DNA of 64,000 bases from an uncultured SAR86 cluster bacterium. GTDB lineage: Bacteria > Pseudomonadota > Gammaproteobacteria > Magnimaribacterales > Magnimaribacteraceae. Numbering within the stretch: position 1 is the first letter of the stretch; each line of letters begins with the position of its first letter. The stretch is taken from assembly GCA_938048695.1 (NCBI GenBank), contig CALIUO010000007.1:173556-237555 (forward strand), written 5' to 3'. The notes beneath the pieces are model-generated. The model saw only the letters and a program-made list of their open reading frames with translations. It made no database searches and was not told the DNA's origin. Both the position numbers and the translations under genes were made by a program. This document shows positions 27,293-32,615 of this stretch, in pieces.

Positions 27293-27901
27293 CTAGACTG
27301 AAGCTACCCATTTTTCTATGACTATATCTATATCTTCCTTGTTTTTTTCCATCAGAGAATAAAATTGATTCCTAAAAATTAAGCCTAGATTCATGCCATT
27401 AATCTCAATATTTATTATCTTCCACTTTCCATCTTTATCAAGATACATGCTATATCTACCAGGATAAACACTTGAAGAAGTTACTATCTCTATATTCACT
27501 CTGGCCTTGGTCTTTGACTTCGAAGGACCCTCCGGAGGTAGTACATTAATTTTTTCATCCTTGAACTCAACAAGAGTACTTGCATATGTATCTAATAAAC
27601 TACTCTCAAACGCTTCTGAAAATGCATACATTTGCTCCTCAGATGCTCTTTTTCCATATTTTCCCATTACATTTTTGGCTATTCTTTTAAAATCAACTAT
27701 TGGGCTAAAAGCGTCGCTTATTTCCTTGGTAAAAAGTTCGGGATTATCTAGGAATAATTGATTCTTAGTTTGGATTATCTCAATAATATTATTGTGAGTT
27801 TTTTCGGCATATTCATGAGCAGATAACTGTTCTGCAGACGCCAAACCGCAATGAATTATTAATTTTACAATTACTAAGGTCTTTAGATAAGCAAATTTCA
27901 T
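27293..27901 (-). CDS. mlaC: MlaC-like periplasmic phospholipid carrier
   Basis: MlaC shuttles phospholipids between the outer membrane MlaA complex and the inner membrane MlaFEDB transporter. The product has a signal peptide ending GLASA, then the family pattern of DAFSPIVDFKRIAKNVMGKYGK and a beta-rich region (RVNIEIVTSS, WKIINIEINGMNLGLIFRNQF). I chose ATG at 27899-27901 (202 residues) over a GTG at 27932-27934, because an extended -10 element at 27936-27944 would start transcription downstream of the GTG. No clear Shine-Dalgarno is seen. mlaF, mlaE, mlaD and mlaB are absent from this locus. Confidence 0.85.
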   Translation of the reverse strand: MKFAYLKTLVIVKLIIHCGLASAEQLSAHEYAEKTHNNIIEIIQTKNQLFLDNPELFTKEISDAFSPIVDFKRIAKNVMGKYGKRASEEQMYAFSEAFESSLLDTYASTLVEFKDEKINVLPPEGPSKSKTKARVNIEIVTSSSVYPGRYSMYLDKDGKWKIINIEINGMNLGLIFRNQFYSLMEKNKEDIDIVIEKWVASV

Positions 27902-27935
27902 AAGAGATAAATATGATTTGATTAGTTTTGGCACT

Positions 27936-27982: not shown

Positions 27983-28933
27983 ATGATCATTGCAACATTT
28001 GCAATTGTACTTGGCATAGGACTGATATGGGTTAGTGCTGAAAAATTGGAGAAATATTCTGTCCTGACGGCAAAGCAATTTGGCTTTTCTCCGTTTTTTA
28101 TAGGGTCAACGGTAATTGCGTTTGGTACCTCTGCTCCTGAGATGCTCACTACCTTCTTCGTGTCTCTAGAAAATAAAGGCTCAATGGTCATCGGAAATGT
28201 AATTGGTTCGAATGTTGCGAACTTATCACTTGTTTTTGGATCTATGCTTCTAATAATTTCTTTGAAAAAACTTAAAATTAGCCAAGAGAAAAGTATAAAA
28301 AAGAATTTATTGATACTAATTATTTCCAGCTTACTGGTCTGGGTAGTTATAGCCACAGAACCATTCAATATTATCTCCTCGCTCATACTTCTAGGCACCC
28401 TCTTCCTAGTAATATTATTTTGGTACAAAAATGGTGTTGCTGAGGAAGAAGAGCTGGTACACGATACCGAGCATAAAGGTGTAGCTTTCAAGCTCTTTAT
28501 ATCTCTTGTGTTTCTTGTCTTTGCAGCTTACTTAATCACATTTGGTGCAAATCAAATTTTGGATAAATTTAATCTGGGACAACTTTTTATTGGCTATACA
28601 GTTCTTGCAATTGGAACAAGCTTGCCGGAAATTGCTGCTTCTGTATCTTTGGCATTGAAAGGAAGATACGAGACAGTCTCTGGTACTCTCATTGGTTCAA
28701 ATATTTTCAATGGGTTGTGCGTTCTAGCTATACCGGGTTTATTTATGAGGCCGGAAATGTCTGTGGGTTGGTCTTATTTGGAATGGTCTCCGCTTCTATT
28801 TATACTATTTGTAATCACTTTTATCTTTGCTTCTTATATTTTCCTGATAACAAAAAAAGATAGGATTGCTAGCGTACTATTGAGTTTATTATTCTTAAGC
28901 TCATACTTTATTTCCCTTTACTTTGCTTATTAG
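27983..28933 (+). CDS. Cation/calcium exchanger family antiporter (YrbG type)
   Basis: The 316-residue membrane protein contains the two internal CaCA repeats of the family. The first alpha repeat is STVIAFGTSAPEMLTTFFVSL (split by family motif GTSAPE near residue 50) with IGNVIGSNVANLSL; the second is YTVLAIGTSLPEIAASV with LIGSNIFNG. About ten membrane segments are predicted. It likely exchanges Ca2+ or K+ for Na+ or H+ at the inner membrane. E. coli yrbG occupies the same position before kdsD; its physiological role is not settled. No Shine-Dalgarno is obvious. Confidence 0.9.
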   Translation: MIIATFAIVLGIGLIWVSAEKLEKYSVLTAKQFGFSPFFIGSTVIAFGTSAPEMLTTFFVSLENKGSMVIGNVIGSNVANLSLVFGSMLLIISLKKLKISQEKSIKKNLLILIISSLLVWVVIATEPFNIISSLILLGTLFLVILFWYKNGVAEEEELVHDTEHKGVAFKLFISLVFLVFAAYLITFGANQILDKFNLGQLFIGYTVLAIGTSLPEIAASVSLALKGRYETVSGTLIGSNIFNGLCVLAIPGLFMRPEMSVGWSYLEWSPLLFILFVITFIFASYIFLITKKDRIASVLLSLLFLSSYFISLYFAY

Positions 28934-28946
28934 ATAAATTTACTTC

Positions 28947-29915
28947 ATGAAAAAACATAATTACCTTAAATCGGGAAGACGAACTATAAGAATTGAATCT
29001 AAAGGATTAGAAAAACTTGCAAAGAAACTATCACCAGATTTCAATTTAGTTTGCGATGCACTCTTTAAAACGCGAGGAAAAATAATTACGCTCGGCATAG
29101 GTAAATCAGGACACATAGCCAAAAAAGTATCTGCTACTCTTTCAAGTACTGGTTCTCCATCGAGTTTTATAAATGCTGGTGAGGCACTGCATGGAGATAT
29201 TGGAGGAATAAATAAAAATGACTCAGTCATAATTTTTTCTCATTCAGGCGAAAGTGAAGAAATTATGAGTCTCATTCCTTTTTTAAAAAAAGTAGGATGT
29301 GATGTTTTTTCAATAACTGGGTCAAAAGATTCTTTCATAGCAAGAAATTCTCAGGTCAGCTTGGATACAGGGATTTCTGAAGAAGCATGCCCATTGGATC
29401 TTGCTCCAACTACTAGCACCACTGTATCACTAGCTTTAGGGGACGCTATTGCCGTTGCTTTGCTGGAAGCAAAGAACTTCAAAAGTGATGATTTTGCAAA
29501 ATCTCATCCGGGAGGAAAACTAGGAAAAAGGCTCATCACAACCGTAGAAGACTTGATGTCAAAAGGAAAAGACTTGCCTATTGTCTCTAGAGAAATGACC
29601 TTGTCAGAGACATTAATTGAAATAAGCTCAAAAGGTCTAGGAGTGGCCTTAGTAATTGATAAGAAAAAATTAGCAGGCATCTTTACTGATGGTGATCTCC
29701 GTAGAACCTTGAATAAGGTAAAAGACCCATTGAGTAAAAGCATAGATACATATATGACCAAAAAAACAAAAACGATTTTGGTAGATAAACTAGCCATAGA
29801 AGCATTAGAAATTATGCAAAAAAATAAGATATATTCTCTTGCAGTAGTAGATAAAAAAAATATACCTGTTGGAATAATAAGAATGCATGATTTGATAGAA
29901 TTTGGATTGGTTTAA
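28947..29915 (+). CDS. kdsD: Arabinose-5-phosphate isomerase
   Basis: KdsD converts ribulose 5-phosphate to arabinose 5-phosphate, the precursor of KDO for lipopolysaccharide. The 322-residue protein has a SIS domain (about residues 30-180; GIGKSGHIAKKVSATLSSTGSPS, HSGESEE, APTTSTT, KSHPGGKLGKRL) followed by two CBS domains (about 200-320; VIDKKKLAGIFTDGDLRR and IPVGIIRMHDL). Length is typical. kdsC, the KDO-8-phosphate phosphatase gene that usually follows, is missing; the next gene starts eight bases on. Confidence 0.94.
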   Translation: MKKHNYLKSGRRTIRIESKGLEKLAKKLSPDFNLVCDALFKTRGKIITLGIGKSGHIAKKVSATLSSTGSPSSFINAGEALHGDIGGINKNDSVIIFSHSGESEEIMSLIPFLKKVGCDVFSITGSKDSFIARNSQVSLDTGISEEACPLDLAPTTSTTVSLALGDAIAVALLEAKNFKSDDFAKSHPGGKLGKRLITTVEDLMSKGKDLPIVSREMTLSETLIEISSKGLGVALVIDKKKLAGIFTDGDLRRTLNKVKDPLSKSIDTYMTKKTKTILVDKLAIEALEIMQKNKIYSLAVVDKKNIPVGIIRMHDLIEFGLV

Positions 29916-29923
29916 AACGGTAT

Positions 29924-30613
29924 ATGCTCAAGATAGGTTTTCTGTTTTTAATCTCAATTTTCATTAATTGTCTTCACGCAATTGAACTCAATAATAATCC
30001 TAAGCTGAATTCTTTTATTTCAGAGCCTTCATTTCTTTTTTTAAATTCACAGCAAAAGATTACTTTAGTAGGTGCAAACGCTACTTCGATAAATAGTTTT
30101 GAATATTTGCTGGAAAAACCTGAATTAAAATTAAAAACAGATAAATTTTCAACAAATATCAAGGCACTCAAGGCAGAGTTCAATAGAAACTCCAAATTTA
30201 TTAATTTTAGAAATTCTGTAACTTTTAAAACCTTTTTTGAAAAAGAAATCTTGATTCAATCAGAGGAACTAACGCTTGATTTCAATAAACAAAAGTTAGC
30301 TAGTAATCTGCCTGTGTTTGCTTCAATAAATGGTGTTAGCGTAAACTCTCTTGGGATAGAGATTCTGCAACTCGAGGATGGCTTAAAAGCAGAATTCTAT
30401 AAAGGAGAGATAAAAATAAAAACTAAAGAGAATTACCATACAGGTAGTGCAAATAAGATTTCGATCTTTCCAACTCTCAATGAGCTAGTTATGAATGGTA
30501 ATGCTTACTTCGATCAAGATGGATTGATTATTAAATCTGACATAATCCATTACAATCTCGAAGAAAATAGGATAATAAAATCTTTAAACTCGAAGATAGA
30601 AAATTCTTTATGA
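29924..30613 (+). CDS. LptC/LptA-like LPS transport protein, apparent hybrid
   Basis: A single 229-residue gene fills the place of lptC and lptA between kdsD and lptB. The N-terminus (MLKIGFLFLISIFINCLHA) looks like a cleavable signal rather than the usual LptC anchor. The middle (LDFNKQKLASNLPVFASI, then SVNSLGIEILQLEDG) follows the LptC C-terminal pattern. The last 60 residues (HTGSANKISIF, ELVMNGNAYFDQDGLIIKSD, IIHYNLEENRI) follow the LptA/OstA repeat pattern of L-x-GNA-x4-D then I-x-Y. Both families share the beta-jellyroll that makes the LPS bridge. The hybrid reading is inferred from patterns, not from alignment. The stop overlaps lptB by four bases. Confidence 0.7.
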   Translation: MLKIGFLFLISIFINCLHAIELNNNPKLNSFISEPSFLFLNSQQKITLVGANATSINSFEYLLEKPELKLKTDKFSTNIKALKAEFNRNSKFINFRNSVTFKTFFEKEILIQSEELTLDFNKQKLASNLPVFASINGVSVNSLGIEILQLEDGLKAEFYKGEIKIKTKENYHTGSANKISIFPTLNELVMNGNAYFDQDGLIIKSDIIHYNLEENRIIKSLNSKIENSL

Positions 30614-31335
30614 ATCTGACTGTAAAAAATATAGTAAAGTCTTACGACGAAAAGATAGCAGTTGATGATATTTCTTTTGAAGTAACTAGTGGCGAAACTG
30701 TTGGAATTTTAGGTCCAAATGGTGCTGGCAAAACAACACTCTTCTACATTATTGCGGGTCTAATTCGTAGCGATTCAGGTACACTTTCTTTGTCAGAAGC
30801 CGAACTGAATGACAAATCAATATCTGAGAGAACTATAATGGGATTGTCATACTTACCTCAAGAATCCTCAATCTTTAGAGGTCTAAGTGTTCAACAAAAT
30901 ATATATGCTGCGTTAGAGCAAAGGAAGGATTTAGATAAAAAAGGGAAACAATCAAAACTTGCTGAATTACTTGAAGAGTTCAACCTTAATCAGTTTTCTG
31001 AGACCCTTGGAATAAAGCTATCTGGAGGAGAGAGAAGAAGGACTGAAATAGCTAGATCTCTGGCTTCTAACCCTAAATTCATTCTTCTTGATGAGCCTTT
31101 TGCTGGAATTGATCCTCTTGCCGTATCAGATCTTAAAGATACTATTCGAAGCTTAAATGCCCAAAACATAGGTGTTTTAATAAGTGATCACAACGTAAGG
31201 GATACTATGCATATTTGTTCAAAAGTTCTAGTAGTAAATCAAGGCAAGATCATAGCCAACGGACAACCTTCAGAAATTTCTCAAAATGATCTTGTTAAAG
31301 AGGTCTATCTTGGACAAAACTTTCTAGCTGACTAG
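30610..31335 (+). CDS. lptB: LPS export ABC transporter ATPase LptB
   Basis: LptB powers extraction of lipopolysaccharide from the inner membrane with LptFG. The 241-residue ATPase has Walker A GPNGAGKTTLFY near residues 35-46, the Q-loop YLPQESSIFRGLSV, the signature LSGGERRRTEIARSLA near 138-153, Walker B FILLDEPFAGIDP, and the switch histidine in ISDHNVRDT. These match LptB closely. It is coupled to the upstream LptC/A-like gene and to rpoN. Confidence 0.97.
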   Translation: MNLTVKNIVKSYDEKIAVDDISFEVTSGETVGILGPNGAGKTTLFYIIAGLIRSDSGTLSLSEAELNDKSISERTIMGLSYLPQESSIFRGLSVQQNIYAALEQRKDLDKKGKQSKLAELLEEFNLNQFSETLGIKLSGGERRRTEIARSLASNPKFILLDEPFAGIDPLAVSDLKDTIRSLNAQNIGVLISDHNVRDTMHICSKVLVVNQGKIIANGQPSEISQNDLVKEVYLGQNFLAD

Positions 31336-32615
31336 TGAAACAAGGCTTAAAACAGAAGCAGAGACTTGCCCTTAATGTTACCGCCTCTCTAGGCAATCAA
31401 ATAAAATTACTTTCTCTAACTGGATTTGAAATAAGTACGAAGCTTAATGAGCTAATAAACGATTATTTTGAAGAAGAAGATAAAAAAGTCGCCCATTTTA
31501 GAGACGAGTATCTGATTGATAAATATAAAAATATTCTAAACCAAGGTGATTACTTAAATACCTTCACTGAAGAAAATGAGTCTGATCTTCAAAAGCAACT
31601 CCTCGATCAGCTTGAGATAGCTCCCTTAAATGAAATTCAATCTTTGGTTGGCCAATTCCTTATAGATTCAGTGGAAGCAAATGGTAGATTAGATCCGCAG
31701 CTTGACTTTGAAGATATAAAGGAAATTGTACTCGTTGATTTTGGTAAATCTGTATCTGATAAATATATTGAAGATGTGCTTAGGCTCATTCAAAATTTTG
31801 AACCGGTGGGTTGTGCTTACAGAAATATTAATGAATCTTTGACTGTACAAATAGAAAATTTAGAAATGAATGCCAGCGAAAAATTGGATCTACATGAAAA
31901 TCTGCAGAGTCTAGTTCAAGAAAAAATTGAACTAGATAAAATTTCAGAAAAAACAAAAAATAATCTTAGAAAGCTTTCTTTGAATCCAGCAGGATATTTC
32001 GGTGAGACATCTAAGAATTATGTCAGACCTGATGTTCTTGCTATAGAAGATCAAAATACATGGTACGTATCTCTAAATGATCATTTCATGTCTAAGGAGT
32101 TATTGCAGGCAATCAATGACAAGATTGATTCATCTAATTCTGCAAATAGGTACGATTCAAAATCTTTTCTGAAAGGGCTCGAGAGGAGACAACAGACTCT
32201 CTTAGTTGTAACGGAATATCTTGTTGAAGCTCAAAGTAATTTTCTAAATGGCTCATCAGGAAAAAGAGCAATTTCGAATAAAGAGATTTCTGAAAATCTG
32301 AATATTAGTCAATCGACTGTTTCAAGGATTGTCCGTAATAAATACCTTCAATTGCCTGACAGATTAATTCTACTCAAAGATTTACTAGAGAAAAGGGTCA
32401 ATAAACACAAAGTAGGTGCAGATGTTACAAGTGATGACTTAAAGTTTCTTCTGAAAACGATAATCGAAAATGAAGACAAATCTTCTCCTCAAAGTGATGA
32501 GTTTATAAGGCTCGAATTGGAAAAGAAATTCAAAGTAACATTAGCAAGAAGAACGGTAGCAAAGCATCGATTTGACCTTAAGATTCCTTCATCTAAGAAA
32601 AGAATTACAAAATAA
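31335..32615 (+). CDS. rpoN: RNA polymerase sigma-54 factor
   Basis: Sigma-54 directs RNA polymerase to -24/-12 promoters with help of AAA+ activators. The 426-residue protein starts at a GTG that overlaps the lptB stop by one base. Region I is recognisable (QRLALNVTASLGNQIKLLSL). The core-binding part follows, then the helix-turn-helix (ISENLNISQSTVSRIVRNKYLQ) and the RpoN box ARRTVAKHR near the C-terminus, canonical form ARRTVAKYR. Length is somewhat below the 477 of E. coli. The usual followers hpf, ptsN and rapZ are absent; yhdP converges two bases away. Confidence 0.95.
   Translation: MKQGLKQKQRLALNVTASLGNQIKLLSLTGFEISTKLNELINDYFEEEDKKVAHFRDEYLIDKYKNILNQGDYLNTFTEENESDLQKQLLDQLEIAPLNEIQSLVGQFLIDSVEANGRLDPQLDFEDIKEIVLVDFGKSVSDKYIEDVLRLIQNFEPVGCAYRNINESLTVQIENLEMNASEKLDLHENLQSLVQEKIELDKISEKTKNNLRKLSLNPAGYFGETSKNYVRPDVLAIEDQNTWYVSLNDHFMSKELLQAINDKIDSSNSANRYDSKSFLKGLERRQQTLLVVTEYLVEAQSNFLNGSSGKRAISNKEISENLNISQSTVSRIVRNKYLQLPDRLILLKDLLEKRVNKHKVGADVTSDDLKFLLKTIIENEDKSSPQSDEFIRLELEKKFKVTLARRTVAKHRFDLKIPSSKKRITK

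Follow-up and report, generated by a model that had tools for sequence, protein, structure and literature searches.

We analysed a 64,000-nucleotide stretch of DNA from an uncultured SAR86 bacterium (the window, in whose positions features are given). The genes and features around the lipopolysaccharide (LPS) export ATPase gene are as follows.

27983-28933, plus strand: yrbG-type calcium/sodium antiporter (PF01699, 153.3 bits; synteny as in E. coli)
28947-29915, plus strand: kdsD, arabinose-5-phosphate isomerase (TIGR00393, KpsF/GutQ, 312.7 bits, above 203.7)
29924-30613, plus strand: X, a putative LptC/LptA-type hybrid jellyroll protein of 229 aa (open reading frame, Pfam, family profile, AlphaFold2, VIA-align)
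29924-29989, plus strand: N-terminal hydrophobic helix of X, residues 2-22 (AlphaFold2, with lower confidence there)
30002-30400, plus strand: LptC-like part of X, residues 27-159 (VIA-align, family profile)
30236-30610, plus strand: LptA-like part of X, residues 105-229 (VIA-align, hhalign)
30610-31335, plus strand: lptB, LPS export ATPase (TIGR04406, 326.4 bits, cut-off 240)
31335-32615, plus strand: rpoN, sigma-54 (Pfam Sigma54_DBD and Sigma54_CBD; synteny as in E. coli)

The kdsD product also matches PRK10892 (330.8 bits, under the NCBIfam cut-off of 505). RpoN (31335-32615) is divergent, scoring 223.4 bits with TIGR02395 against a cut-off of 277.35, and its activator-interacting domain is weak (14.9 bits). 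Upstream, mlaC (27293-27934) adjoins murA without mlaF, mlaE or mlaD alongside, unlike in E. coli.

X is the sole gene between kdsD and lptB, starting 8 bp after the end of kdsD and overlapping lptB by 4 bp. Since the same stretch of E. coli reads yrbG-kdsD-kdsC-lptC-lptA-lptB-rpoN, three genes (kdsC, lptC and lptA) are replaced here by one. An earlier note on this DNA, made from the sequence, had claimed that only one 229-residue protein lies between kdsD and lptB; the open reading frames and neighbour matches confirm this, and the layout is kept in relatives. It recurs in 14 of 18 same-genus relatives, which are those where the protein was matched. Likewise, the nearest 23 loci (L085-L107) of the 59 from a scan by RpoN alignment all read kdsD-X-lptB, with X split in L086. 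This conservation across relatives means that the observation is not due to chance, and the conserved locus also rules out chance similarity of X. The split copy comes from a single-cell genome, G015 (L022:1477-2179, on the same contig as L086), where the link gene forms frames of 111 and 121 aa; the split may reflect decay or a sequencing error.

We compared X with the two families that the earlier note had proposed for an HMM comparison, and it passes both Pfam models: PF03968 (LptA type) with 27.2 bits over residues 79-215 (cut-off 20.4), and PF06835 (LptC) with 22.6 bits over residues 60-146 only (cut-off 21). It falls under the NCBIfam cut-offs of both the LptC model TIGR04409 (24.8 versus 38 bits) and the LptA equivalog TIGR03002 (23.9 versus 71.7 bits). 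Moreover, LptA controls cross-match PF06835 with 16.8, 17.4 and 25.7 bits (n=3; the 25.7-bit protein is syntenic), so the double Pfam match of X is weak taken alone. Relatives of X give clearer results. L105 (genus g2) matches PF06835 with 45.4 bits over residues 11-164 and PF03968 with 49.4 bits over residues 128-230, and L107 (genus g5) matches them with 41.1 bits over residues 3-150 and 33.5 bits over residues 85-222. Both PF06835 matches include the N-terminal helix and exceed the cross-matches of the LptA controls, which argues against X being an LptA with an N-terminal extension of added jellyroll strands, LptC having simply been lost and the LptC likeness being that of a common fold. 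We consider this alternative unlikely.

One point in favor of an extended LptA is that X matches better over its C-terminal half. We built a family profile, A2, from 23 proteins of the window's family (X and 22 relatives that are 18-57% identical to it). Against PDB sequences, profile positions 3-163 of A2 matched LptC chains, with E 7.1e-5 at best, and positions 108-221 matched LptA chains, with a best E of 8.2e-11. In pairwise hhalign comparisons, the match to E. coli LptA was strong (E 7.4e-8, residues 33-150), while that to E. coli LptC was weak (E 0.046, probability 1.1).

AlphaFold2 run on A2 predicted a helix (residues 2-22) and one continuous 20-strand jellyroll (pLDDT 89.6, pTM 0.78), for which the top Foldseek matches were LptA, LptC and LptD. 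With VIA-align, residues 27-159 superposed on residues 38-175 of Vibrio cholerae LptC (6mjp_C; Z 13.8, rmsd 2.4, 130 aligned), and residues 105-229 on residues 32-166 of LptA (2r19_B; Z 15.2, rmsd 1.9, 123 aligned). The best whole-length fold match was residues 35-219 on the N-terminal domain of LptD (9a39; Z 17.9, rmsd 3.6, 170 aligned), a point in favor of an extended LptA; LptD itself is encoded separately, on contig C13. Eukaryotic MORN-repeat and junctophilin chains were also in the VIA-align list (Z 8-10.5), which we ascribe to a beta arrangement that is common. In X, residues 105-159, a stretch of approximately 55, belong to both the LptC-like and the LptA-like part. Because the two parts have strands in common, X is a merged jellyroll and not a tandem fusion. 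E. coli LptA has 16 strands and LptC 15, according to PMC4986956; thus X is longer than either and far shorter than both joined.

These results support the earlier proposal that the middle of X is LptC-like and its end LptA-like, which is further borne out by the family profiles and by relatives such as L105. Of the single jellyroll hybrid that had been pictured, the one jellyroll stands, but according to AlphaFold2 and VIA-align its LptC-like and LptA-like parts overlap and are not two domains. The structure prediction that had been suggested as a check could have returned one domain matching LptC alone, an outcome that did not occur.

Set beside E. coli LptC (PF06835, TIGR04409), X has a superposable jellyroll, the same position at the locus and, in some relatives, an anchor-like N terminus. 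It differs in its weak sequence match, in the LptA-like end that it carries beyond LptC, and in an N terminus that may be a cleaved signal. With E. coli LptA (PF03968, TIGR03002) and Pseudomonas aeruginosa LptH it shares the superposed LptA region and the place directly before lptB; unlike them, it has approximately 80 extra LptC-like residues in front and nothing matching LptA past about residue 166.

By a simple composition-based rule, cleavage of X is possible after LHA19. The same rule gives mostly shorter N-terminal helices with possible cleavage sites in the window's genus, and long LptC-like helices, mostly lacking a good cleavage site, in genus g2 and in a second SAR86 family, f3. Judged from sequence, the N-terminal helix of X may be either a signal peptide or an LptC-type anchor, and some relatives look membrane-anchored. 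The earlier statement that X has a signal peptide rather than the LptC anchor is therefore not upheld as worded, since g2 and f3 relatives have LptC-like anchors. That these relatives keep a long LptC-like N-terminal helix also speaks against an extended LptA.

Full-length LptC-LptA tandem fusions do exist. Directly upstream of lptB at 10 of the 59 loci from the RpoN scan, mostly in Bdellovibrio-like bacteria, are fusions of 325-342 aa (L113:3157-4170, L127:3232-4233, L130:2779-3807, L131:2923-3900, L132, L133, L134, L135, L136 and L137:3242-4249), four of which were checked against Pfam. For a tandem fusion, AlphaFold2 predicted an N-terminal helix and a single long jellyroll (pLDDT 80.9). 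Thus, fusing of lptC and lptA has happened elsewhere. Like X, these proteins combine both partners in one chain before lptB and are predicted to form one long jellyroll. However, their two profile matches mostly overlap little, whereas the parts of X have strands in common; the length of X and these overlapping parts rule out a tandem fusion at our locus.

To look for a second bridge protein, we searched the window's own genome, an assembly of 59 contigs that is 84.8% complete. PF06835 and PF03968 matched only X and the N terminus of LptD, so the genome search that the earlier note had called for found no separate lptA or lptC in this assembly. Our A2 profile, and a profile (A4) made from families f2 and f4, likewise matched only X and LptD at meaningful scores, and the f3 profile matched nothing. 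In G005, a genome of the same genus that is a single contig and 95% complete, PF06835 and A4 again matched only X and LptD, and PF03968 gave no match at the threshold used. The other components are in place: LptD is a 760-aa frame on contig C13, and LptF and LptG are on C7, so that LptB, LptF, LptG and LptD are present with one link gene.

We also weighed whether X is a divergent LptC (or LptA) whose unrecognised partner is encoded elsewhere, so that the bridge still consists of two proteins. The assembly may lack approximately 15% of the genome, which would leave room for such a partner, and PF06835 misses one clear syntenic LptC in another genome (G105). As this model both misses an LptC and cross-matches an LptA, neither an absence nor a double match is decisive alone. 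Against a hidden partner are the profile searches, the identical outcome in G005, and the recurrence of the one-gene pattern in 52 of 61 SAR86 genomes. Loss of the partner at a contig break in this locus was rejected, as X lies in the interior of a 343-kb contig and G005, itself one contig, agrees. Overall, we regard a hidden partner as improbable.

For comparison, we evenly drew 73 non-SAR86 Gammaproteobacteria, 69 of which had a PF06835 match. We read 30 of their loci; in the 25 with both neighbours visible, the gap between kdsD and lptB was 1055-1960 bp. Of seven further weak or odd loci, the five with both neighbours visible had gaps of 917-1659 bp and separate lptC-like and lptA-like genes. 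Most Gammaproteobacteria use two proteins for the inner Lpt link, but the SAR86 order appears to manage with one gene. Two controls are unusual. G122 (L345:3414-5225) reads kdsC-lptC-lptB with no lptA at the locus, which counts in favor of a partner encoded elsewhere, and its LptF keeps Arg212. In G105, the nearest outgroup to SAR86 in our KdsD and LptB tree, the LptC that PF06835 misses is an anchored, syntenic LptC-like protein of 191 aa (L272:1429-2001), and kdsC is absent at the locus.

The SAR86 order has been named Magnimaribacterales and comprises four families, with a single isolate in culture (PMC11582366). Our labels f1 to f4 are working family labels, with the window's family as f1, and may not map onto the published names in that order. 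In the 52 SAR86 genomes with one gene upstream of lptB, kdsD is not adjacent to the link gene in one (G037); the locus was not seen in the other nine (G004, G011, G014, G016, G021, G023, G043, G045 and G060). Scanning named genomes directly with the X sequence confirmed no relative. Where both neighbours were visible, the gap between kdsD and lptB was 341-748 bp in SAR86. Leaving out the split copy, link proteins are 171-246 aa in f1, 183-239 aa in f3 and 125-143 aa in f2 and f4.

The proteins are LptC/LptA hybrids in f1 and f3 and minimal LptA-like proteins in f2 and f4. The f3 and f1 profiles aligned over 191 columns, nearly their whole length (E 2.1e-15), and the one f3 protein tested in Pfam matched only LptC, a result that speaks against an extended LptA. 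The f2 and f4 proteins match LptA only (A4 against PDB LptA chains, best E 2.3e-12), and these plain LptA-like relatives do fit that alternative. PF06835 and the f3 profile found no LptC in f2 and f4 genomes, with the proviso that the f3 profile had no match among PDB sequences and so also misses canonical LptC there. In a FastTree phylogeny of KdsD and LptB from 43 SAR86 genomes, the SAR86 clade had support of 0.997, f1 beside f2, f3 and f4 had 0.993, and f3 with f4 had 0.68. Because hybrids occur in both f1 and f3, the simplest, though not firm, reading is a hybrid ancestor whose descendants f2 and f4 were trimmed to the LptA part. Neighbouring lptC and lptA would have merged in the SAR86 ancestor, and two families would later have kept the LptA part only.

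E. coli survives the absence of LptC once Arg212 of LptF is replaced by Gly, Ser or Cys. One of these three LptF substitutions was present in 11 of 11 independent strains lacking LptC (PMC4986956), and with LptF R212G, LptA contacts LptF in a six-protein bridge (PMC9972910). We aligned 70 LptF sequences from 69 control genomes with 51 from SAR86, fixing the register by the glycine two residues before position 212, which is present in 68 of 70 controls and all 51 SAR86 proteins. Among the controls, 54 of 70 have Arg at position 212; none of the 51 SAR86 proteins does, and they have instead Ser (18), Leu (15), Ile (7), Phe (6), Val (3), Ala (1) or Met (1). Only f1 has Ser (18 of 27), and other SAR86 families have hydrophobic residues; in the window's own genome the equivalent is Ser208 of a 335-aa LptF. 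Absence of Arg is not exclusive to SAR86, as it is also absent in 16 of 70 controls. With LptC matches split at 80 bits, a value chosen after seeing the data, Arg is missing in 7 of the 56 controls whose LptC reaches 80 bits and in 8 of the 13 whose LptC is weaker or absent (Fisher p 0.0006). The seven that lack Arg despite a strong LptC weaken the loss of R212 as a diagnostic of missing LptC. Further, because SAR86 is one clade, its Arg loss may be one event. This loss is consistent with a non-canonical partner docking directly on LptF.

Like the E. coli lptC deletion with LptF R212G/S/C (PMC9972910 and PMC4986956), SAR86 has one periplasmic link and lacks the LptF Arg, with Ser in its place here. 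The suppressor is, however, a laboratory strain with an unchanged, overexpressed LptA, while SAR86 has an evolved hybrid across a whole order. In E. coli, the bypass dispenses with LptC but retains LptA (PMC9972910), which is also what an extended LptA would imply.

A model that accommodates these data is that X is the sole dedicated periplasmic LPS link, an LptC/LptA hybrid formed by a merger of neighbouring genes, in a natural six-component Lpt machine; we think this is probably correct. Most likely, a single periplasmic protein naturally bridges LptF and LptD for LPS in SAR86. In this scheme, LPS would be pushed by LptB2FG through LptF, X and LptD/E; by analogy with E. coli, it would leave via the LptF jellyroll, pass along X and enter the LptD jellyroll. 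The N-terminal edge of X, in LptC's part, would take LPS from the LptF jellyroll, and the C-terminal edge, in LptA's part, would pass it to the N-terminal jellyroll of LptD. We take the C-terminal strands of X to be the LptA end facing LptD and the N-terminal strands to be the LptC end facing LptF, an assumption that draws in part on PMC9972910. X could act as a monomer or a chain, soluble or anchored. As to history, we give about equal weight to acceptance and rejection of a fuller account, in which the order ancestrally swapped LptC and LptA for one merged jellyroll and rewired LptF, and two families trimmed the bridge to an LptA of approximately 110 residues.

Could X no longer carry LPS, being instead a remnant or a carrier of another lipid between the membranes? 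Its fast divergence (the 18-57% identity of its 22 relatives) and the broken copy in G015 would fit such a fate. The 4-bp overlap with lptB, the LptA-typical strands kept in X and the presence of lptF, lptG and lptD make it scarcely credible.

What is new is the combination of a merger that yields a single, shorter jellyroll with a change in LptF and a reduction to a minimal LptA; we found no report of a fused or missing LptC/LptA, or of SAR86 Lpt, in the open-access full-text literature. Why two proteins, LptC and LptA, are needed in the Lpt bridge has yet to be explained. An abundant surface-ocean lineage appears to do naturally without a separate LptC, with the same LptF position changed. 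If so, evolution can dispense with LptC as a subunit of its own, along a path resembling that of the E. coli suppressors. Natural one-protein bridges, ranging from approximately 110 to 220 mature residues, would form a test set for bridge length, anchor and contacts. Since thanatin-like peptides target LptA, LptC and their contacts, natural variants of these interfaces would also be useful.

The shortest proteins are in f4 (L055, L059, L067-L070, L074 and L079), where the link protein is only 125-134 aa with a signal-like N terminus and is perhaps the smallest LPS bridge. LptF and LptG of this family are also very divergent, scoring at best 51-62 bits with PF03739.
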